Shown: positions 28,371 through 42,204 of the stretch, piece by piece
How the letters are laid out: each line of letters opens with the position of its first letter
How positions within the stretch are numbered: the first letter of the stretch is position 1
Virus record (IMG/VR): IMGVR_UViG_3300037119_001293
Coordinates: 1 to 44,375 of that record
Origin: a virus
Reading direction: 5' to 3' (one strand)
DNA length: 44,375 nt
The notes under the pieces: model-generated
What the model was told of the DNA's origin: nothing
Databases searched by the model: none
What the model saw: only the letters and a program-made list of their open reading frames with translations
Program-made: the position numbers and the translations under genes

Positions 28371-28570
28371 GCGCCACACCACAACATCTGACTGGCCCTA
28401 CCTTCTCGGCTGCTCATTACGGCGTCGTATTGCTTGTCCGACACCACCTCCCGCACGACCGGCTGCCATTCTCCGTTGATCTCAACCATCCCCGTCACAT
28501 CTAGGCCCGCGCCACGAAATGCCGCCATTGCCATTTCCCTCGACGTGAACCGTTCTCCATTGTGGCTCAT
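28367..28570 (-). CDS. Small protein, unknown
   Basis: 67 aa: MSHNGERFTSREMAMAAFRGAGLDVTGMVEINGEWQPVVREVVSDKQYDAVMSSREGRASQMLWCGA. Soluble, mixed alpha/beta, no motif recognised. ATGA overlap with the NusG-like gene at 28567-28570; its stop lies in the -35 box of the promoter at 28342-28370. Possibly co-expressed with the NusG-like factor. Confidence 0.65.
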   Translation of the reverse strand: MSHNGERFTSREMAMAAFRGAGLDVTGMVEINGEWQPVVREVVSDKQYDAVMSSREGRASQMLWCGA

Positions 28571-29160
28571 CCCAGCTTCTCCAATTTGTCCAAGTCCACC
28601 TCCGCTGAATGTTCGGCCCCGAACAGTTTGACGTGAAACACACCCTTCGGCCCGCGAATATCCACAATCTCCACTTCCCAGTTAACCAACTCTCCGACCT
28701 TGATGCGGACCAGATCACCCTTGCGGACGGTGCGGGCGATCCGCCTCCGCTCCTCTATCTCCTCATCCACCTCGCGCATCGCCTGAAGCTGGGTCAACGT
28801 GTCCTCGTGCAGCCGCCCGGCCTCGCCGTTGTGCATCCTGAGCACGTCCCGCACGTTGCGCCGGTCGTCGCCGAGAATGCGCCACCATGCCGGCTCGCCT
28901 GGGAATCTGGCGAAGACATAGCCAGGGAGGTAGCGGCGGACCCGGCTAATGTCACGGCCACGGTGACGCTGCTTCGTGATGGTGACAGGGTAAAACGCCT
29001 CAACGCCATGCTCGGCTAGCCATATCCGGGTTGGCGCCTCGCGTTGGGGATAGACGATGAGGCAGTGCCAGCGGCTTTCGCCTGGGGTAACGATGGAGGT
29101 CGCCAGCACGGGCGGGATGGTTTCGCTCCACTGGATCGCCTGCGCCGGCTGATGGGTCAT
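28567..29160 (-). CDS. NusG-like transcription antitermination factor
   Basis: 197 aa from ATG 29160 (ATGA overlap). NGN domain ~30-125: RWHCLIVYPQREAPTRIWLAEHGVEAFYPVTITKQRHRGRDISRVRRYLPGYVFARF, ILGDDRRNVRDVLRM. C-terminal KOW domain ~143-195: VRKGDLVRIKVGELVNWEVEIVDIRGPKGVFHVKLFGAEHSAEVDLDKLEKLG. This is the NusG/RfaH architecture. Family members bind RNA polymerase and change pausing or termination. As part of the early half of a ~36-kb leftward operon that contains terminator-like hairpins, it probably helps polymerase read the late genes. Phage-specific targets are not known. Confidence 0.8.
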   Translation of the reverse strand: MTHQPAQAIQWSETIPPVLATSIVTPGESRWHCLIVYPQREAPTRIWLAEHGVEAFYPVTITKQRHRGRDISRVRRYLPGYVFARFPGEPAWWRILGDDRRNVRDVLRMHNGEAGRLHEDTLTQLQAMREVDEEIEERRRIARTVRKGDLVRIKVGELVNWEVEIVDIRGPKGVFHVKLFGAEHSAEVDLDKLEKLG

Positions 29161-29507
29161 ATCGGACCCTCGTGCCATTCTGGATCGGTGTCCGGGTTTA
29201 TCTCCCTAGGCAGGTGTGGACATCCGGGGAAATGCATCTCCCCTTCTAGGGCGCCGCACAACTGGCACTCAGTTCCGGGGGCTTGGAACGCAGCCGCGCG
29301 GGCTGGCCTGGGGTCGCCCTCGCTTCGGGTGAGGATTTTGGCCCTCTCGGCAGCGGCGAGGTTGTTAAGCTCGTCCACAACGGCCGGTCCATCCATCCAC
29401 TCACCATGCAGGTTGGCAGCCCGCGCCAGCTTCTCGACGGTGCGCGCGGCGCACTCAAGCGCCTCGGCGCGGGTGCGAGCTATGAGGGTGGTTGGATCAA
29501 ATCTCAT
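29157..29507 (-). CDS. Small protein with C-terminal zinc-binding-like cluster
   Basis: 116 aa from ATG 29507 (ATGA overlap): MRFDPTTLIARTRAEALECAARTVEKLARAA..., a helical N-terminal half, then ECQLCGALEGEMHFPGCPHLPRE, a CxxC...CxH set able to bind zinc. The last gene before the NusG-like factor, also with ATGA overlap. Similar proteins occur in alphaproteobacterial phages, to my memory; function unknown. Confidence 0.65.
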   Translation of the reverse strand: MRFDPTTLIARTRAEALECAARTVEKLARAANLHGEWMDGPAVVDELNNLAAAERAKILTRSEGDPRPARAAAFQAPGTECQLCGALEGEMHFPGCPHLPREINPDTDPEWHEGPI

Positions 29508-32005: not shown

Positions 32006-32223
32006 GTCCGCCTCACGCGATGAAGGGAAAGGGGGCGAGAGCCGAAGCCCTCGCCCCAAGTGCCGCCGGGATGGGGGATCGACCGGCGGCGGTCACGCTC
32101 GCAGCGCAGGAGGGACACGCGAGCGGATGGCGTTAACGAGTTAACCAGTTGATCTAGCGGGGCTTTCCACGCTGCGGAAATGCGTGCGATGTTGCGCGCA
32201 TGAGCGTCGAGCCCTTCAGTCAT
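32002..32223 (-). CDS. Small protein downstream of the Cro-like gene
   Basis: 73 aa: MTEGLDAHARNIARISAAWKAPLDQLVNSLTPSARVSLLRCERDRRRS..., then a Gly/Pro/Arg-rich tail that looks less protein-like. ATGA junctions with both neighbours argue for translation. Unknown function. Second gene of the leftward operon. Confidence 0.5.
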   Translation of the reverse strand: MTEGLDAHARNIARISAAWKAPLDQLVNSLTPSARVSLLRCERDRRRSIPHPGGTWGEGFGSRPLSLHRVRRT

Positions 32224-32402
32224 TGCGAAGCCGCTTCCACCGCCAGTTGGGCTAGGAGAACGGAGATAGGGCCTTTGATGGGGCCTTCTTTCCGCTCCAG
32301 GAGCGAAACCGTGGACTGATGGACGCGGAGATATTCCGCGAGCTTTTCCTGACTCCAGCCAAGCCGGGCGCGCAGGTCGCGGATGTCGGAGGATGTGTTC
32401 AT
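32220..32402 (-). CDS. Cro/CI-type helix-turn-helix regulator
   Basis: 60 aa: DIRDLRARLGWSQEKLAEYLRVHQSTVSLLERKEGPIKGPISVLLAQLAVEA, a complete XRE-family HTH with little else, the size of a Cro protein. It is the first gene of the long leftward operon and is read from a promoter with a perfect TTGACA box. The predicted transcript begins at or beside its ATG (32402), so it would be leaderless. It faces the HTH repressor candidate at 32476 across a shared operator region, as in a lysis-lysogeny switch. Confidence 0.75.
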   Translation of the reverse strand: MNTSSDIRDLRARLGWSQEKLAEYLRVHQSTVSLLERKEGPIKGPISVLLAQLAVEAASQ

Positions 32403-32408
32403 GCCGAC

Positions 32409-32437
32409 AATCTATGTAAAATCCATAGATATGTCAA
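32409..32437 (-). promoter_or_regulatory. Leftward early promoter (Cro-type operon)
   Basis: TTGACA (32437-32432), 17-nt spacer, TAGATT (32414-32409) on the leftward strand. The operator CTATG-N7-CATAG occupies the spacer and the first three bases of the -10 box. The expected start of transcription, ~32402, coincides with the start codon of the Cro-like gene. Confidence 0.75.
32412..32428. promoter_or_regulatory. Operator CTATG-N7-CATAG in the leftward promoter
   Basis: CTATGTAAAATCCATAG, with dyad symmetry extended by one base on each side (TCTATG...CATAGA). It overlaps the spacer and -10 box of the leftward promoter. The same motif recurs at 33416-33432 in the rightward promoter at the identical offset. 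Confidence 0.65.
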
Positions 32438-32442
32438 ATGGG

Positions 32443-32457
32443 AAATCCATTGGATTT
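32443..32457. promoter_or_regulatory. Second dyad upstream of the repressor gene
   Basis: AAATCCA-T-TGGATTT, a perfect 7+7 palindrome with one central base. It shares AAATCCAT with the operator at 32412-32428, 24 bp away. It lies upstream of the leftward -35 box and over the likely -35 region of the rightward repressor gene, fitting autoregulation. Confidence 0.55.
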
Positions 32458-32475
32458 TCGTGCCAAAACGCATTT

Positions 32476-32811
32476 ATGAATGAGAATGAAGCCCGCTCAG
32501 CCCGGTTGAAGGCCGCACGGATCGCCGCAAAGTTCCCGTCCGCTGCGGCTGCTGCGGATAAGTTCAGATGGCCATACCCGACATATGCCCAACACGAGAA
32601 CGGAGGCGGGCTCGGGCGCAGCGCGGCCCGCTACGCGAAGGCGTTCAAGGTCTCACAAGCGTGGCTGTTAACCGGGACCGGCCCCGGTCTCAATCCTCTG
32701 GCGGATGAGCTTCAGGCGATTTTTCAGGATCTTCCGGCGGAATATCAAGCCAAGCTTCTCGATGACGCTTACGTGTATCGGCGAGCCGCTGGTATTCCCG
32801 ACCCAGATTGA
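32476..32811 (+). CDS. Probable phage repressor (XRE-like HTH)
   Basis: 111 aa from the ATG at 32476; a longer frame runs from 32383 but would cover the operators and the divergent gene. MNENEARSARLKAARIAAKFPSAAAAADKFRWPYPTYAQHENGGGLGRSAARYAKAFKVSQAWLLTG is an HTH of the type common in alphaproteobacterial phage and prophage repressors, followed by LADELQAIFQDLPAEYQAKLLDDAYVYRRAAGI. There is no protease domain of the LexA/CI type, so induction is not by RecA self-cleavage of that kind. Divergent from the Cro-like gene. Confidence 0.72.
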   Translation: MNENEARSARLKAARIAAKFPSAAAAADKFRWPYPTYAQHENGGGLGRSAARYAKAFKVSQAWLLTGTGPGLNPLADELQAIFQDLPAEYQAKLLDDAYVYRRAAGIPDPD

Positions 32812-32872
32812 TGAGCTCAAAAAGCGCAGCCGCCGAAAGCCCGGCAATCGCCGGCCAGAATAATTCTCGCAT
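32690..32872 (-). CDS. Possible membrane protein antisense to the repressor gene
   Basis: 60 aa: MRELFWPAIAGLSAAALFELINLGREYQRLADTRKRHREAWLDIPPEDPEKSPEAHPPED. It has one hydrophobic helix, a basic stretch and an acidic tail, which looks protein-like, with GGGG upstream. But it overlaps the 3' 122 nt of the repressor gene on the other strand. Either both are used or this is chance. Low confidence. Confidence 0.3.
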   Translation of the reverse strand: MRELFWPAIAGLSAAALFELINLGREYQRLADTRKRHREAWLDIPPEDPEKSPEAHPPED

Positions 32873-32914
32873 CGAACAACCCCACCCCCTACTTTAAATT
32901 CGCCTTTAGGATGA

Positions 32915-32940
32915 ACGATTGATCGGGGGGGGGCAATCGT
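32915..32940. terminator. Hairpin with nine-G tract between convergent genes
   Basis: ACGATTG (32915-32921) pairs with CAATCGT (32934-32940); the loop contains nine consecutive G (32925-32933). It lies between the end of the rightward repressor gene and the end of the leftward winged-helix gene. No T run follows on either strand, so termination is uncertain; the homopolymer could be slippery in sequencing or replication. Confidence 0.35.
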
Positions 32941-33341
32941 CAGAGGGGCGGCAGCCGCCCATAGGCCGCCTTGAACGCGGCTGCGGCATCACACACGCGG
33001 AAAAGCAACCGAAGCAGCTCGGGAGCGCGCTCGCCGACTACCTTCAGCGTCACCGGCCCGGGTCGGTACCTCCCGCCGTCCTTCTCGACTAGCCCTGCCC
33101 TTACCAGTCGGGCGAGGCTGTCCCGCGTTGATGTCCGGGGCGCGCTGAGGCTGTTGATTACCTCCTGCTGCAATGTGCCTGGGAACACCCACACCTCTAG
33201 GTTAACCACCGTGTCAAATGGCCGGATAGGCTCGCCTGTGCTCTCGCGCATGGCCGCTGCTAGCTCGACCTGGAACCGGAGCACGTCCAGGTAGGCAACC
33301 ATCAACTGCCGCACCGCCGCGCTCTGGAGCATCGCATCCAT
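32940..33341 (-). CDS. Winged-helix transcriptional regulator
   Basis: 133 aa from ATG 33341. N-terminal helices (SAAVRQLMVAYLDVLRFQVELAAAMRES), then FDTVVNLEVWVFPGTLQQEVINSLSAPRTSTRDSLARLVRAGLVEKDGGRYRPGPVTLKV, a MarR-like winged helix with its wing, and a helical C-terminus. An upstream dyad at 33382-33398 resembles the operators of the two main promoters, so it is likely part of the immunity circuit. Encoded between the repressor and the rightward operon, pointing towards the repressor gene. Confidence 0.65.
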   Translation of the reverse strand: MDAMLQSAAVRQLMVAYLDVLRFQVELAAAMRESTGEPIRPFDTVVNLEVWVFPGTLQQEVINSLSAPRTSTRDSLARLVRAGLVEKDGGRYRPGPVTLKVVGERAPELLRLLFRVCDAAAAFKAAYGRLPPL

Positions 33342-33381
33342 GCGCCGACCGTAGCATGATTCGCGGGCTGGTGTCGCCAGC

Positions 33382-33398
33382 CTATGCATTTCCCATAA
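33382..33398. promoter_or_regulatory. Third operator-like site
   Basis: CTATGCATTTCCCATAA, matching CTATG-N7-CATAG in 9 of 10 fixed positions. No good -35 box stands at the matching offset on either strand, so it may control the winged-helix gene (leftward) or act as an auxiliary site for the rightward promoter 34 bp away. Confidence 0.45.
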
Positions 33399-33406
33399 AT
33401 TAGGGC

Positions 33407-33435
33407 TTGCGCTGTCTATGAGTTTCGCATAGATT
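33407..33435 (+). promoter_or_regulatory. Rightward operon promoter
   Basis: TTGCGC (33407-33412), 17-nt spacer, TAGATT (33430-33435). Spacer length, -10 sequence and position of the operator within it are the same as in the leftward promoter at 32409-32437. The first gene starts at 33483 with a good ribosome site, so the leader is ~40 nt. A further CATAG half-site lies at 33442-33446. Confidence 0.65.
33416..33432. promoter_or_regulatory. Operator CTATG-N7-CATAG in the rightward promoter
   Basis: CTATGAGTTTCGCATAG, a perfect 5+5 dyad with 7-nt centre, placed 3 nt after the -35 box and running into the -10 box. The copy at 32412-32428 has exactly the same placement in the leftward promoter. 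Confidence 0.65.
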
Positions 33436-33482
33436 ATCTCCCATAGGCCGCCACGCCGGGACGGCGAGATAGGGGGATCAAG

Positions 33483-33671
33483 ATGCCCGCAGAGATTGTC
33501 ACGCTCATCGTCACCCTCTGCGCGGGGACACTGTGTGAAGTCCATACCCTCGCCCTTCCCGGCGCCTCTCTCATGACCTGCATGGCCGCCGGCCAAGCCG
33601 AGATTGCCAAGAACTTCCCGCCCCGCGGCGACCAGAAGGTCACGCGCTGGCGCTGCCAGATGGAGAAATGA
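33483..33671 (+). CDS. Small conserved protein, first gene of rightward operon
   Basis: 62 aa: MPAEIVTLIVTLCAGTLCEVHTLALPGASLMTCMAAGQAEIAKNFPPRGDQKVTRWRCQMEK. Hydrophobic start and four Cys; the spacing CxxxxC...C...C and SLMxCMxxGQ pattern recalls a small protein often found in Rhizobiales phages and prophages. Possibly exported, with disulfides. GGGGGATCAAG precedes the ATG. First gene after the repressed promoter, so probably expressed early after infection. Confidence 0.7.
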   Translation: MPAEIVTLIVTLCAGTLCEVHTLALPGASLMTCMAAGQAEIAKNFPPRGDQKVTRWRCQMEK

Positions 33672-34536: not shown

Positions 34537-35310
34537 ATGACCGCAGCAATTAAGGCATTCATCACAGCGCAGGCGGCAATGGAGCCGGCCAGAAAAGCGA
34601 CGAATAACCCGCACTTCAGCCGCAAGTACGCCGACCTCTCCACGGTGCAGGAGGCGGTTTTCCCGGCGCTCCACGCTAACGGCTTTGGGGTCCAGTACCT
34701 CAGCGGCTTCGATGAGCGCGGCGAGTACGTCGATACGGTATTCCTGCACGAGAGCGGCGAGCGGTTTTCAACCCGCGTCCGCCTCATCGTCGGCAGGAAC
34801 GATATGCAGGGATATGGCTCCGCGAAGACCTACGCCCGGCGCTATGGGCTGATGGACCTCGCCGGCATCGCCCCCGAGGATGACGACGGCAACGCCGCTG
34901 CGAAGGCCGCACCCAAGCGCCCGCCCATCGAGGCCCGGCGAGAGGCGTTCCGGGATAGCCTGGAGCCGCCGCACGATCCAGAGACTGGCGAGGTAGCCGA
35001 ACCGCAGAACCCCGCTCAGGCCGCGTCCCAGGGGCTCCGTGACGCATGGGTTGACGGCATTCGCGACAGCCTCCCCGAGTTCGCATCCCCGGTCGAGTTT
35101 CAGAACGCTGTCGCCGACGCCCTAATTGCAGCCTTCGCCGCGAAGAAGTCTGAGAGGGGCTGTGCCGCGCAGTGGCACAAGCGCGAGGACCTTATCATGG
35201 AAATGCGGGTCGCCTCGCCTCCGGCATACCACCGCGTCCTAGACGCGTTCAACAAGCGGATGGCCGAACTCCGTGAGCCGATTGTCATGGGTGAGGTTCG
35301 GGTATCGTGA
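34537..35310 (+). CDS. erf: ERF-family single-strand annealing protein
   Basis: 257 aa. AMEPARKATNNPHFSRKYADLSTVQEAVFPALHANGFGVQYL, TRVRLIVGR, and QGYGSAKTYARRYGLMDLAGIAPEDDDGNAA are the conserved blocks of the ERF recombinase family (P22 Erf type), residues ~12-125. The C-terminal half is a variable region with a helical segment (DAWVDGIRDSLPEFASPVEFQNAVADALIAAF). It promotes annealing of complementary single strands in phage recombination and genome circularisation. GAAGGAAGATGAGCG precedes the ATG, a boundary sequence seen again at 39.8 kb. Confidence 0.88.
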   Translation: MTAAIKAFITAQAAMEPARKATNNPHFSRKYADLSTVQEAVFPALHANGFGVQYLSGFDERGEYVDTVFLHESGERFSTRVRLIVGRNDMQGYGSAKTYARRYGLMDLAGIAPEDDDGNAAAKAAPKRPPIEARREAFRDSLEPPHDPETGEVAEPQNPAQAASQGLRDAWVDGIRDSLPEFASPVEFQNAVADALIAAFAAKKSERGCAAQWHKREDLIMEMRVASPPAYHRVLDAFNKRMAELREPIVMGEVRVS

Positions 35311-37862: not shown

Positions 37863-38047
37863 CCGACCTAAGCCGCGCCGAGCAGATCGCCGAGAGCGTG
37901 CAGGTCGTGCGCGCCCTGCTCGGCGACCGCGATGCGGCAAAGGTTGAGGTTTCCGTGTCGCGTGGGGGAACCTACACTATCCGGGCGGAAACGGCCGAGG
38001 GGGATAAGGTCGCGCTTCCTGCATTGGTTTCGGGGCGGGGGAAATGA
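37859..38047 (+). CDS. Small protein, unknown
   Basis: 62 aa, GTG start: MTDLSRAEQIAESVQVVRALLGDRDAAKVEVSVSRGGTYTIRAETAEGDKVALPALVSGRGK. One helix and a beta hairpin-like part. ATGA overlap with the next gene. Unknown. Confidence 0.58.
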   Translation: MTDLSRAEQIAESVQVVRALLGDRDAAKVEVSVSRGGTYTIRAETAEGDKVALPALVSGRGK

Positions 38048-38241
38048 GCATGTGGCAGCCGATCGAGACTGCGCCATACGCGCGGCAACCGGACTACGTA
38101 CTCGTATGGGGGCCGAAAACCGGCATTCAAATCGGGCGCGTCTACCACTATCCCGAGGGGGATGTGTCTGCAACTGCGGTAGGATTTACGGGCGAATGGG
38201 GCATTACCCATTGGCAGCCGCTTCCCGAGCCGCCGAAATGA
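38044..38241 (+). CDS. DUF551-like small protein
   Basis: 65 aa: MSMWQPIETAPYARQPDYVLVWGPKTG..., ITHWQPLPEPPK. The WQPIETAP start and THWQPLPEPP end are the hallmark of DUF551-type phage proteins. A second member lies at 40262-40492. Directly precedes the integrase with ATGA overlap. Confidence 0.75.
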   Translation: MSMWQPIETAPYARQPDYVLVWGPKTGIQIGRVYHYPEGDVSATAVGFTGEWGITHWQPLPEPPK

Positions 38242-39200
38242 AACGCGGACCATACCGTACGAACCCGGAGCCCGGCAGCTTCGCCGACCTTGTCCAGCGG
38301 TTCCGGCAGTCGCCGCGATACCGCAACTGGTCCGCAAGCACCCGTAAGCACGCCGACCGGGTGATGGACGATTTCCGCGTAGGGAACGCCGAATGGGCGA
38401 TGCGCGGTCAGGTATCCATCCTGACGCTGGCTCAAATCATCATGATCCGCGACAGTTTCAGCGAGCATCCCAGCGCCGCGAACAACTGGACGAAGGTGAT
38501 GGCTGGCCTGCTCAGGTACGCCAAGCGGATCGGCTTCATCGAAAACAACCCATTATCGGACGGGCTGGAGACACTGCCCCCGCTCAAGCCGGGCGGGCAT
38601 CGAACATGGCGCGACGACGAGCTCGACGCCTACCGCGCGCACTGGCCGCTGGGAGCGACCGCCCGGCTGGTGTTCGAGCTTGCCGCGGGGACGGGCGCCT
38701 CTGGCGTCGATCTGGTGAAGCTCGGCTGGCCGGGCGTAGACGGCGACCGCATCCGCTACCGCCGGCAGAAGACCGAGCGGCGGAAAGGCACCGAGGAAAC
38801 GCCCGAGGTGAACATCCCCATCCTTCCCGAGCTCGCCGAGGCGCTGGCGCTGGTGCCGCGCGCCCGGCTGACGTTCCTGGAGACGGCGGAAGGGCTGCCC
38901 CGCTCGCAGGGGAGCCTCGTCCACAAATTCCGCGCATGGGTCGCGGAGGCGGGGCTGGGGGCGGCTGACCGCAACGGGCGGCACCTGAGCCTACACGGGC
39001 TGAGGAAGGCCCTGGGGAGGCGTCTGGCGGAGGCTGGGGTATCGCCGCACGGGATCATGTCCGTGCTTGGGCATGAAAGCATCGCCTCGGCCCAGGTGTA
39101 CACGAAGGCATATGACCGGGCGCGGGCGAGCGACGACGCGCTGGCGAAGCTCGCCGAGACGAAGCCGACGAATGTGACGAGGATCAGGAGAGCAGAATGA
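38238..39200 (+). CDS. int: Tyrosine-type site-specific integrase, first catalytic Arg replaced
   Basis: 320 aa from ATG 38238 (ATGA overlap). N-terminal SAM-like core-binding domain ~10-130 (FADLVQRFRQSPRYRNWSASTRKHADRVMDDF). Catalytic domain: Lys178 in RYRRQKTE, His253 and Arg256 in SLHGLRKALG, His279 in VLGHESIAS, and nucleophile Tyr288 in QVYTKAYD. Where family members have TG-x-R-x-x-(E/D)-L, this protein has TGASGVDL (Ser155), so Arg I appears missing. It would integrate phage DNA into the host; the Arg loss may impair or change this. No attP core could be identified. Confidence 0.87.
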   Translation: MKRGPYRTNPEPGSFADLVQRFRQSPRYRNWSASTRKHADRVMDDFRVGNAEWAMRGQVSILTLAQIIMIRDSFSEHPSAANNWTKVMAGLLRYAKRIGFIENNPLSDGLETLPPLKPGGHRTWRDDELDAYRAHWPLGATARLVFELAAGTGASGVDLVKLGWPGVDGDRIRYRRQKTERRKGTEETPEVNIPILPELAEALALVPRARLTFLETAEGLPRSQGSLVHKFRAWVAEAGLGAADRNGRHLSLHGLRKALGRRLAEAGVSPHGIMSVLGHESIASAQVYTKAYDRARASDDALAKLAETKPTNVTRIRRAE

Positions 39201-41199: not shown

Positions 41200-42204
41200 T
41201 CAGGTTAGGGGCCGCCAGCCGGCGGCTGTCGCGACTGTCGGCACGTAGTTGGCGAGTTTAGGGTTGAGCCACTTCAGCCCCGCCGAGCTCGGCGCAGCAT
41301 TCCCGATGTCGAGGCGGATCGATGGCGTGCTTGCGGCGTCCCATCCGACATTGCCCGCCCACTTCGTCGTGTTGAACGCAGGAGCCCACGAAGGCGAGGT
41401 GTTGTTGTACGCCCGCTTATTCGCCAGCGAACCGGCGCCGCGCGAGCACACGGCAATGTTTCTGTCGAGCGTCACGTTCTTGCTGTGGGCGACAGAGATT
41501 TCCGATAGCCATGTTGCCGGGTTAAGCGGGTTCAGGCTATTGTTGACGCAAGTGCAGAGACGAACGGTCACATTGTCCGTCCAGACGACGTGAATGCCCT
41601 TCCCGTCGTTGTCGTAGCACAGGCAATTGTGGATCAGCGTCTTATGCGTGTAGCCGCCGGGCTCGCCGCCGCCTTGCGTGTTATTGAAATCGTCCAGAAC
41701 GATCCCGTTCCCGTCCTGCTGCATCGAACTGGCATTCCAAGTGTTCTGCCCGTAGCAGATGCAATTGCGGATGATGTTGCGGAAGCCGCCAATGAGAGTG
41801 CCCGCGGCGAGCACCTTATTCTGCCACGCGGAGATGCCGGAAAACCACCCGGTTTCCGCGTTCCCGTAGGTTGTGCAATCCTCGACCAAGAACCAGTCGC
41901 AACGATTGAACTGGATTCCGCTCTCGCCGCAATAGCGGGCCGTGCAGCGTCGAATGGTGACGTGGTGGACGCCATCGCACTCGATCCCGTCGCCCGGCGC
42001 ATTGACGATCTCTAGGCCTTCGATCGTGACGTTGTTGGCCTTGACGGTAATGGCGTTCCATCCGCCGCTCGGGGCGATGATTGCGCCCGGCAAGCCGACC
42101 AGCTTGAGCGGCTTGCCGATGTAGAGATTTTCACGATGCACGCCCGCCGCGACGGTGACGGTTGATCCCGCCGCCGCCGCGTCGATTTGGGATTGGACGC
42201 TCAC
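41200..42204 (-). CDS. Second right-handed beta-helix tailspike, paralog of 1520-2812
   Basis: 334 aa, GTG start. Beta-helix turns from ~50 to ~280: NVTIEGLEIVNAPGDGIECDG, HHVTIRRCTARYCGESGIQF, FLVEDCTTYGNAETGWFSGISAW, GGFRNIIRNCICYGQN, GNGIVLDDFNNT, LIHNCLCYDNDGKGIHVVWTDNVTVRL. These align in order with the tailspike at 1520-2812 (HHITIRNC, VEDCVCYGN, GGWFSGIT, PRNIIRNCLVYDN, GNGILMDDW, GNKGIGITWSD). The ends differ. It lies beyond the lysis genes, an unusual place for a tail component. Likely binds or cuts a surface glycan. Confidence 0.8.
   Translation of the reverse strand: MSVQSQIDAAAAGSTVTVAAGVHRENLYIGKPLKLVGLPGAIIAPSGGWNAITVKANNVTIEGLEIVNAPGDGIECDGVHHVTIRRCTARYCGESGIQFNRCDWFLVEDCTTYGNAETGWFSGISAWQNKVLAAGTLIGGFRNIIRNCICYGQNTWNASSMQQDGNGIVLDDFNNTQGGGEPGGYTHKTLIHNCLCYDNDGKGIHVVWTDNVTVRLCTCVNNSLNPLNPATWLSEISVAHSKNVTLDRNIAVCSRGAGSLANKRAYNNTSPSWAPAFNTTKWAGNVGWDAASTPSIRLDIGNAAPSSAGLKWLNPKLANYVPTVATAAGWRPLT

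Follow-up and report, generated by a model that had tools for sequence, protein, structure and literature searches.

The 44,375-base stretch of viral DNA that we analysed (an IMG/VR record, hereafter the window) very probably carries the lambda-type immunity region of a temperate phage whose structural genes are podophage-like, in which a CI-like repressor would control both gene arms from paired operators, O1 and O2, at two divergent promoters. This reading draws on the sequence and on analogy with known switches. Because like operator pairs stand before both gene blocks, one repressor most likely silences both of them in a lysogen. A first-pass annotation of this DNA had proposed such a single repressor, and the gene order, the tandem operators, the lambda-like register and the recurrence of the same design in four other loci argue for it.

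The dyad CTATG-N7-CATAG is present in exactly two copies in the whole 44,375-base record, the two O1 operators of Table 1, and the dyads, the promoters and their registers lie where the first-pass annotation had placed them. Along the leftward promoter the module reads TTGACA-TAT-CTATGGATTTTACATAG-ATT, and along the rightward promoter TTGCGC-TGT-CTATGAGTTTCGCATAG-ATT. Both O1 operators are 17 bp long, begin 3 nt past the -35-like hexamer and have the bases TAG in common with the -10 box, TAGATT; they point away from each other. From -35 through -10, the two promoters are identical at 21 of 29 nt. The N17 spacer length and the TAGATT box are the same in both, as had been claimed, but the accompanying statement that the seven central bases differ was only partly right, since the heptamers read in promoter direction (GATTTTA and AGTTTCG) share TTT and their four differences are all transitions. 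A simple promoter scan called the left promoter and not the right one; the right -35, TTGCGC, has 3 of the 6 bases of the -35 consensus. Under a first-order Markov model, the 140-nt right intergenic region would contain an exact dyad with a probability of about 3e-4. When pairs of equal dyads were searched in shuffled sequence (6-bp arms, same gap, 150-3500 bp between copies), about 2.7 were found per 2.2 Mb, which corresponds to about 0.05 per 44 kb.

Table 1. Features of the putative immunity region and of the two gene arms (positions in the window).
Feature	Position	Strand	Remarks
P0001, 60-aa Cro/CI-type HTH protein, gene 1 of the leftward arm (Cro position)	32220..32402	-	Pfam HTH_3, E=3.8e-9
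Promoter of the leftward (replication/late) arm	32409..32437	-	TTGACA-N17-TAGATT; 10/12 consensus matches
O1, cro arm: CTATGGATTTTACATAG	32412..32428	-	overlaps -10
O2, cro arm: CAATGGATTTCCCATTT	32436..32452	-	overlaps 5' edge of -35; matrix rank 5
Perfect 15-bp palindrome AAATCCATTGGATTT	32443..32457	.	overlaps cro-arm O2
P0002, 111-aa CI-like repressor between the operator clusters	32476..32811	+	phrog_4 transcriptional repressor, E=8.8e-9
P0004, 133-aa orphan ORF between the CI-like gene and the right operator cluster	32940..33342	-	weak winged-helix similarity, sub-threshold Pfam
O2, recombination arm: CTATGCATTTCCCATAA	33382..33398	+	matrix rank 3
Promoter of the rightward (ERF/integrase) arm	33407..33435	+	TTGCGC-N17-TAGATT; weak -35
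O1, recombination arm: CTATGAGTTTCGCATAG	33416..33432	+	overlaps -10
ORF 1 of the rightward arm, 62 aa, unknown	33483..33671	+	leader of about 40 nt
ERF single-strand annealing protein, rightward arm	34537..35310	+	Pfam ERF, E=9.7e-17
Tyrosine integrase, rightward arm	37932..39200	+	Pfam Phage_integrase, E=5.5e-13

A scoring matrix trained on the two O1 sites alone was scanned over 88,718 positions. After the O1 sites themselves, it placed the recombination-arm O2 at rank 3 and the cro-arm O2 at rank 5. As a matrix built on O1 only recovered both O2 sites, each arm carries a tandem O2-O1 pair. The near-match at 33382-33398 mentioned in the first-pass annotation is thus one of two O2 operators, its left-arm counterpart having been overlooked. 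The centres of O1 and O2 are 24 bp apart on the left and 34 bp apart on the right, a difference of about one helical turn, and all four operators are oriented alike relative to their own promoter. In promoter orientation they have the core ATGNRTTTYNCAT in common, which was found four times against 0.08 expected; this pattern was drawn after viewing the four sites, and therefore the ranks given by the O1-only matrix are the fairer test. No third operator in good register was found near the P0002 start. Other sequences of the region caught our attention. Rank 4 of the matrix scan went to GTATGGACTTCACACAG (33531-33547, minus strand), which lies 115 bp downstream from O1, within ORF 1 of the rightward arm, and this match is possibly an auxiliary site, or chance. 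The palindrome overlapping the cro-arm O2 is possibly an additional site facing the CI-like gene. Finally, the right promoter is flanked by GCCTATG (33380-33386) and CATAGGC (33442-33448), which are perfect inverted arms separated by 55 nt, with CCCATAGG as the outer half-site.

The genes are arranged as in a lambda-type region. P0001 and P0002 are divergent and flank the interval 32403-32475, and like operators (O1 and O2, 33382-33432) recur on the far side of the repressor gene, at the second arm's promoter, with an operator overlapping promoter elements in equal register on both arms. P0001 also matches PHROG transcriptional repressors and regulators. Its ATG lies 6 nt past the TAGATT -10 (32400-32414), so that, with transcription starting about 7 nt downstream of TAGATT, the P0001 mRNA is predicted to be leaderless. 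This has a precedent, since the cI and cro mRNAs of PY54 are both leaderless (PMC4488713). P0002 showed 35-45% identity to repressor N-termini in related prophages by tblastn. The open frames of its genomic relatives are mostly 211-433 aa long, against 111 aa, and P0002 thus looks like a repressor without its C-terminal domain. It ends after the HTH region with no match to the peptidase S24 domain that marks LexA-like autocleaving repressors, and a Pfam search of P0002 gave no match. Its single-sequence fold was of low confidence (pLDDT 55), too poor for interpretation. No clear promoter for P0002, which would be the analogue of PRM, was found. P0004 is a candidate accessory or antirepressor gene, and no relatives of it were detected. 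The rightward arm encodes, in order, the 62-aa ORF, ERF, a YbcO-like nuclease and the integrase, while in the leftward arm P0001 is followed by a VRR-NUC nuclease, a possible replication protein of the winged-helix type, a NusG-like protein, and then the terminase and structural genes. The record contains a portal as well as a terminase, and the portal is related to those of podophages. The NusG-like protein (28567-29178) is encoded upstream of the terminase, the expected place of a late-gene antiterminator.

Lambda was used as a control. In both PL and PR, O1 starts 4 nt past -35 and ends within -10; measured from the first -35 base, the offset of the 17-bp operator is 10 in lambda and 9 in the window, meaning that the registers agree within 1 nt. 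From the annotated coordinates, the centres of OL1 and OL2, and those of OR1 and OR2, are 24 bp apart, the same tandem spacing as on the left arm of the window. Both have divergent arms, a repressor gene between the operator clusters, cro first on one arm, and recombination and int genes on the other. Contrarily, lambda has three operators per arm whereas the O1 matrix found two per cluster in the window, three being a detail of lambda that is not required of all such switches, and the right-arm O2 of the window is one helical turn farther. The repressor of the window also differs by having no peptidase domain, the operator sequence is unrelated, an unrelated orphan ORF stands in place of rexA/rexB, and P0001 is predicted to be leaderless whereas lambda cro has a leader. 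The immB regions of the telomere phages PY54 and N15 likewise contain a CI/Cro switch, and the operators bound by N15 CB lie at the cro region and at a distant OL. Unlike the window, PY54 Cro binds the single site OR3, the prophages are linear plasmids, and the operators are unrelated.

We then looked at other phage and prophage loci for TTG-anchored dyads recurring in opposite orientation at equal offset. Diverging pairs were found in the window, in the Bradyrhizobium phage ppUSDA76Be-2 (L010), in a Pseudolabrys MAG prophage (L056), and in loci L141 and L003, and three rounds of shuffling yielded a single diverging pair. A paired-dyad match in L008 was set aside as likely chance, and no strict paired module was present in about 14 further loci with P0002 relatives. 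The operators of the window and of these four loci are all different (CTATG-N7-CATAG, CGCTAC-N5-GTAGCG, ACTCAC-N5-GTGAGT, GTGCA-N5-TGCAC and TCACCA-N3-TGGTGA). When the two arms of one phage were compared, 20-24 of 29 nt were identical, a value raised in part because shared dyads (10 letters) were what the search had selected for, against a mean of 10.4 and a maximum of 15 between phages. As the dyads were preselected, the argument rests on the flanking identity and on the divergent placement around the repressor gene.

The podophage ppUSDA76Be-2 (OP596614) is demonstrably produced: both particles and reads of it were observed in lysogenic Bradyrhizobium elkanii cultures (PMC10127595). Like the window, it has a homologue of the portal, an ERF and integrase arm opposite a replication and terminase arm, and a P0002 relative of similar length (116 aa). 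TTGACA-N17-TAGCGA/TAGCGT modules containing CGCTAC-N5-GTAGCG face both of its arms, a degenerate O2 lies about 25 bp from O1 on both arms by inspection, and the ATG of the lytic gene is 6 nt from -10. It differs from the window in operator sequence and half-site spacing, in the absence of P0004, and in that the first gene of its lytic arm encodes a 75-aa protein with no Pfam or PHROG match that is not P0001-like. The lytic gene starts 6-7 nt past -10 in ppUSDA76Be-2 and L141, possibly also in L056 and L035, and inspection of L141 placed O2 34 bp from O1 on both arms. The repressor/cro intergenic region of L035, a Falsochrobactrum prophage, has two perfect TCGTAC-N5-GTACGA sites 34 bp apart (L035:2295-2355), and no second operator cluster was found within the portion of this locus that was searched.

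The operator itself was also sought in other phages, as had been suggested. The pattern TTGN5-TCTATG-N7-CATAGATT gave six matches in viral contigs, about the number expected by chance, none of them in a recognisable immunity context, and they were not retained. Ten related genomes and records did not contain the operator pattern, and it occurred once among 82 genomes of one family. Except for a partial 33-residue match to P0001 in L003, no close relatives of P0001, P0002, P0004 or the terminase were found in viral contigs. Named phages did not match the region by DNA, nor P0001, P0002 and P0004 by protein; no close relative of this operator was found either.

At both promoters O1 fills the spacer and overlaps -10, with O2 upstream of -35 or at its edge. 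In the switch that we propose, the CI-like repressor, most likely P0002, would bind O2-O1 as adjacent dimers on one helix face, perhaps cooperatively, and would thereby keep RNA polymerase off both promoters during lysogeny; a loop may join the two clusters, which are about 1 kb apart. P0001, presumably translated from a leaderless message, would act as Cro, probably binding the same sites and damping both arms during lytic growth. By analogy, it is likely that the CI-like and Cro-like proteins use common operators here.

P0001 could instead be the sole binder of the dyads, exerting negative feedback on both arms, with P0002 keeping lysogeny via other sites such as the palindrome at 32443-32457. 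It is the only protein of the immunity region with a strong HTH match, and AAATCCATTGGATTT, beside O2, differs in sequence from the dyads. We consider this arrangement unlikely, since CI and Cro of lambda use common operators and since the repressor gene is likewise placed between two similar operator clusters in ppUSDA76Be-2 and the other loci. It is very improbable that the main binder of the dyads is neither P0001 nor P0002 but P0004 or a regulator encoded by the host. P0004 does adjoin the right cluster and has its weak winged-helix similarity, but it is without counterpart in related loci. Moreover, the operators are wholly different between related phages while the design persists, and such turnover with a constant design is what is expected if the binder is a variable phage protein.

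That the match between the O1 operators is due to chance or to passive duplication of a promoter, with no regulatory meaning, is hardly credible. The operators overlap promoter hexamers, and -10 and -35 force some similarity between them. However, O1 and O2 are present on both arms in equal orientation and helical phase, and paired modules recur with unrelated sequence in related loci, well over the shuffled expectation.

If control of both arms by a CI-like repressor is taken as the preferred reading, it gives a concrete immunity type to an uncultivated temperate phage. Related phages and prophages keep the register of the promoter but exchange the operator sequence of both arms together, so that repressor-operator coevolution and superinfection immunity become open to direct test. 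We also tentatively suggest, as a somewhat doubtful extension, a stripped-down lambda-like switch working without autocleavage, in which the CI-like repressor lacks a peptidase, the two operators of each arm stay in helical phase (24 and 34 bp) and the lytic repressor is made from a leaderless message that starts right at the promoter. Such a switch would have to be induced by other means than SOS cleavage, an antirepressor, possibly P0004, being one example; trans-acting antirepressors are reported to induce some prophages (PMC3121763). A beta-helix protein is encoded near each end of the record (1520-2812 and 41200-42204); the two have similar motifs and are possibly duplicated tail-spike or depolymerase modules.
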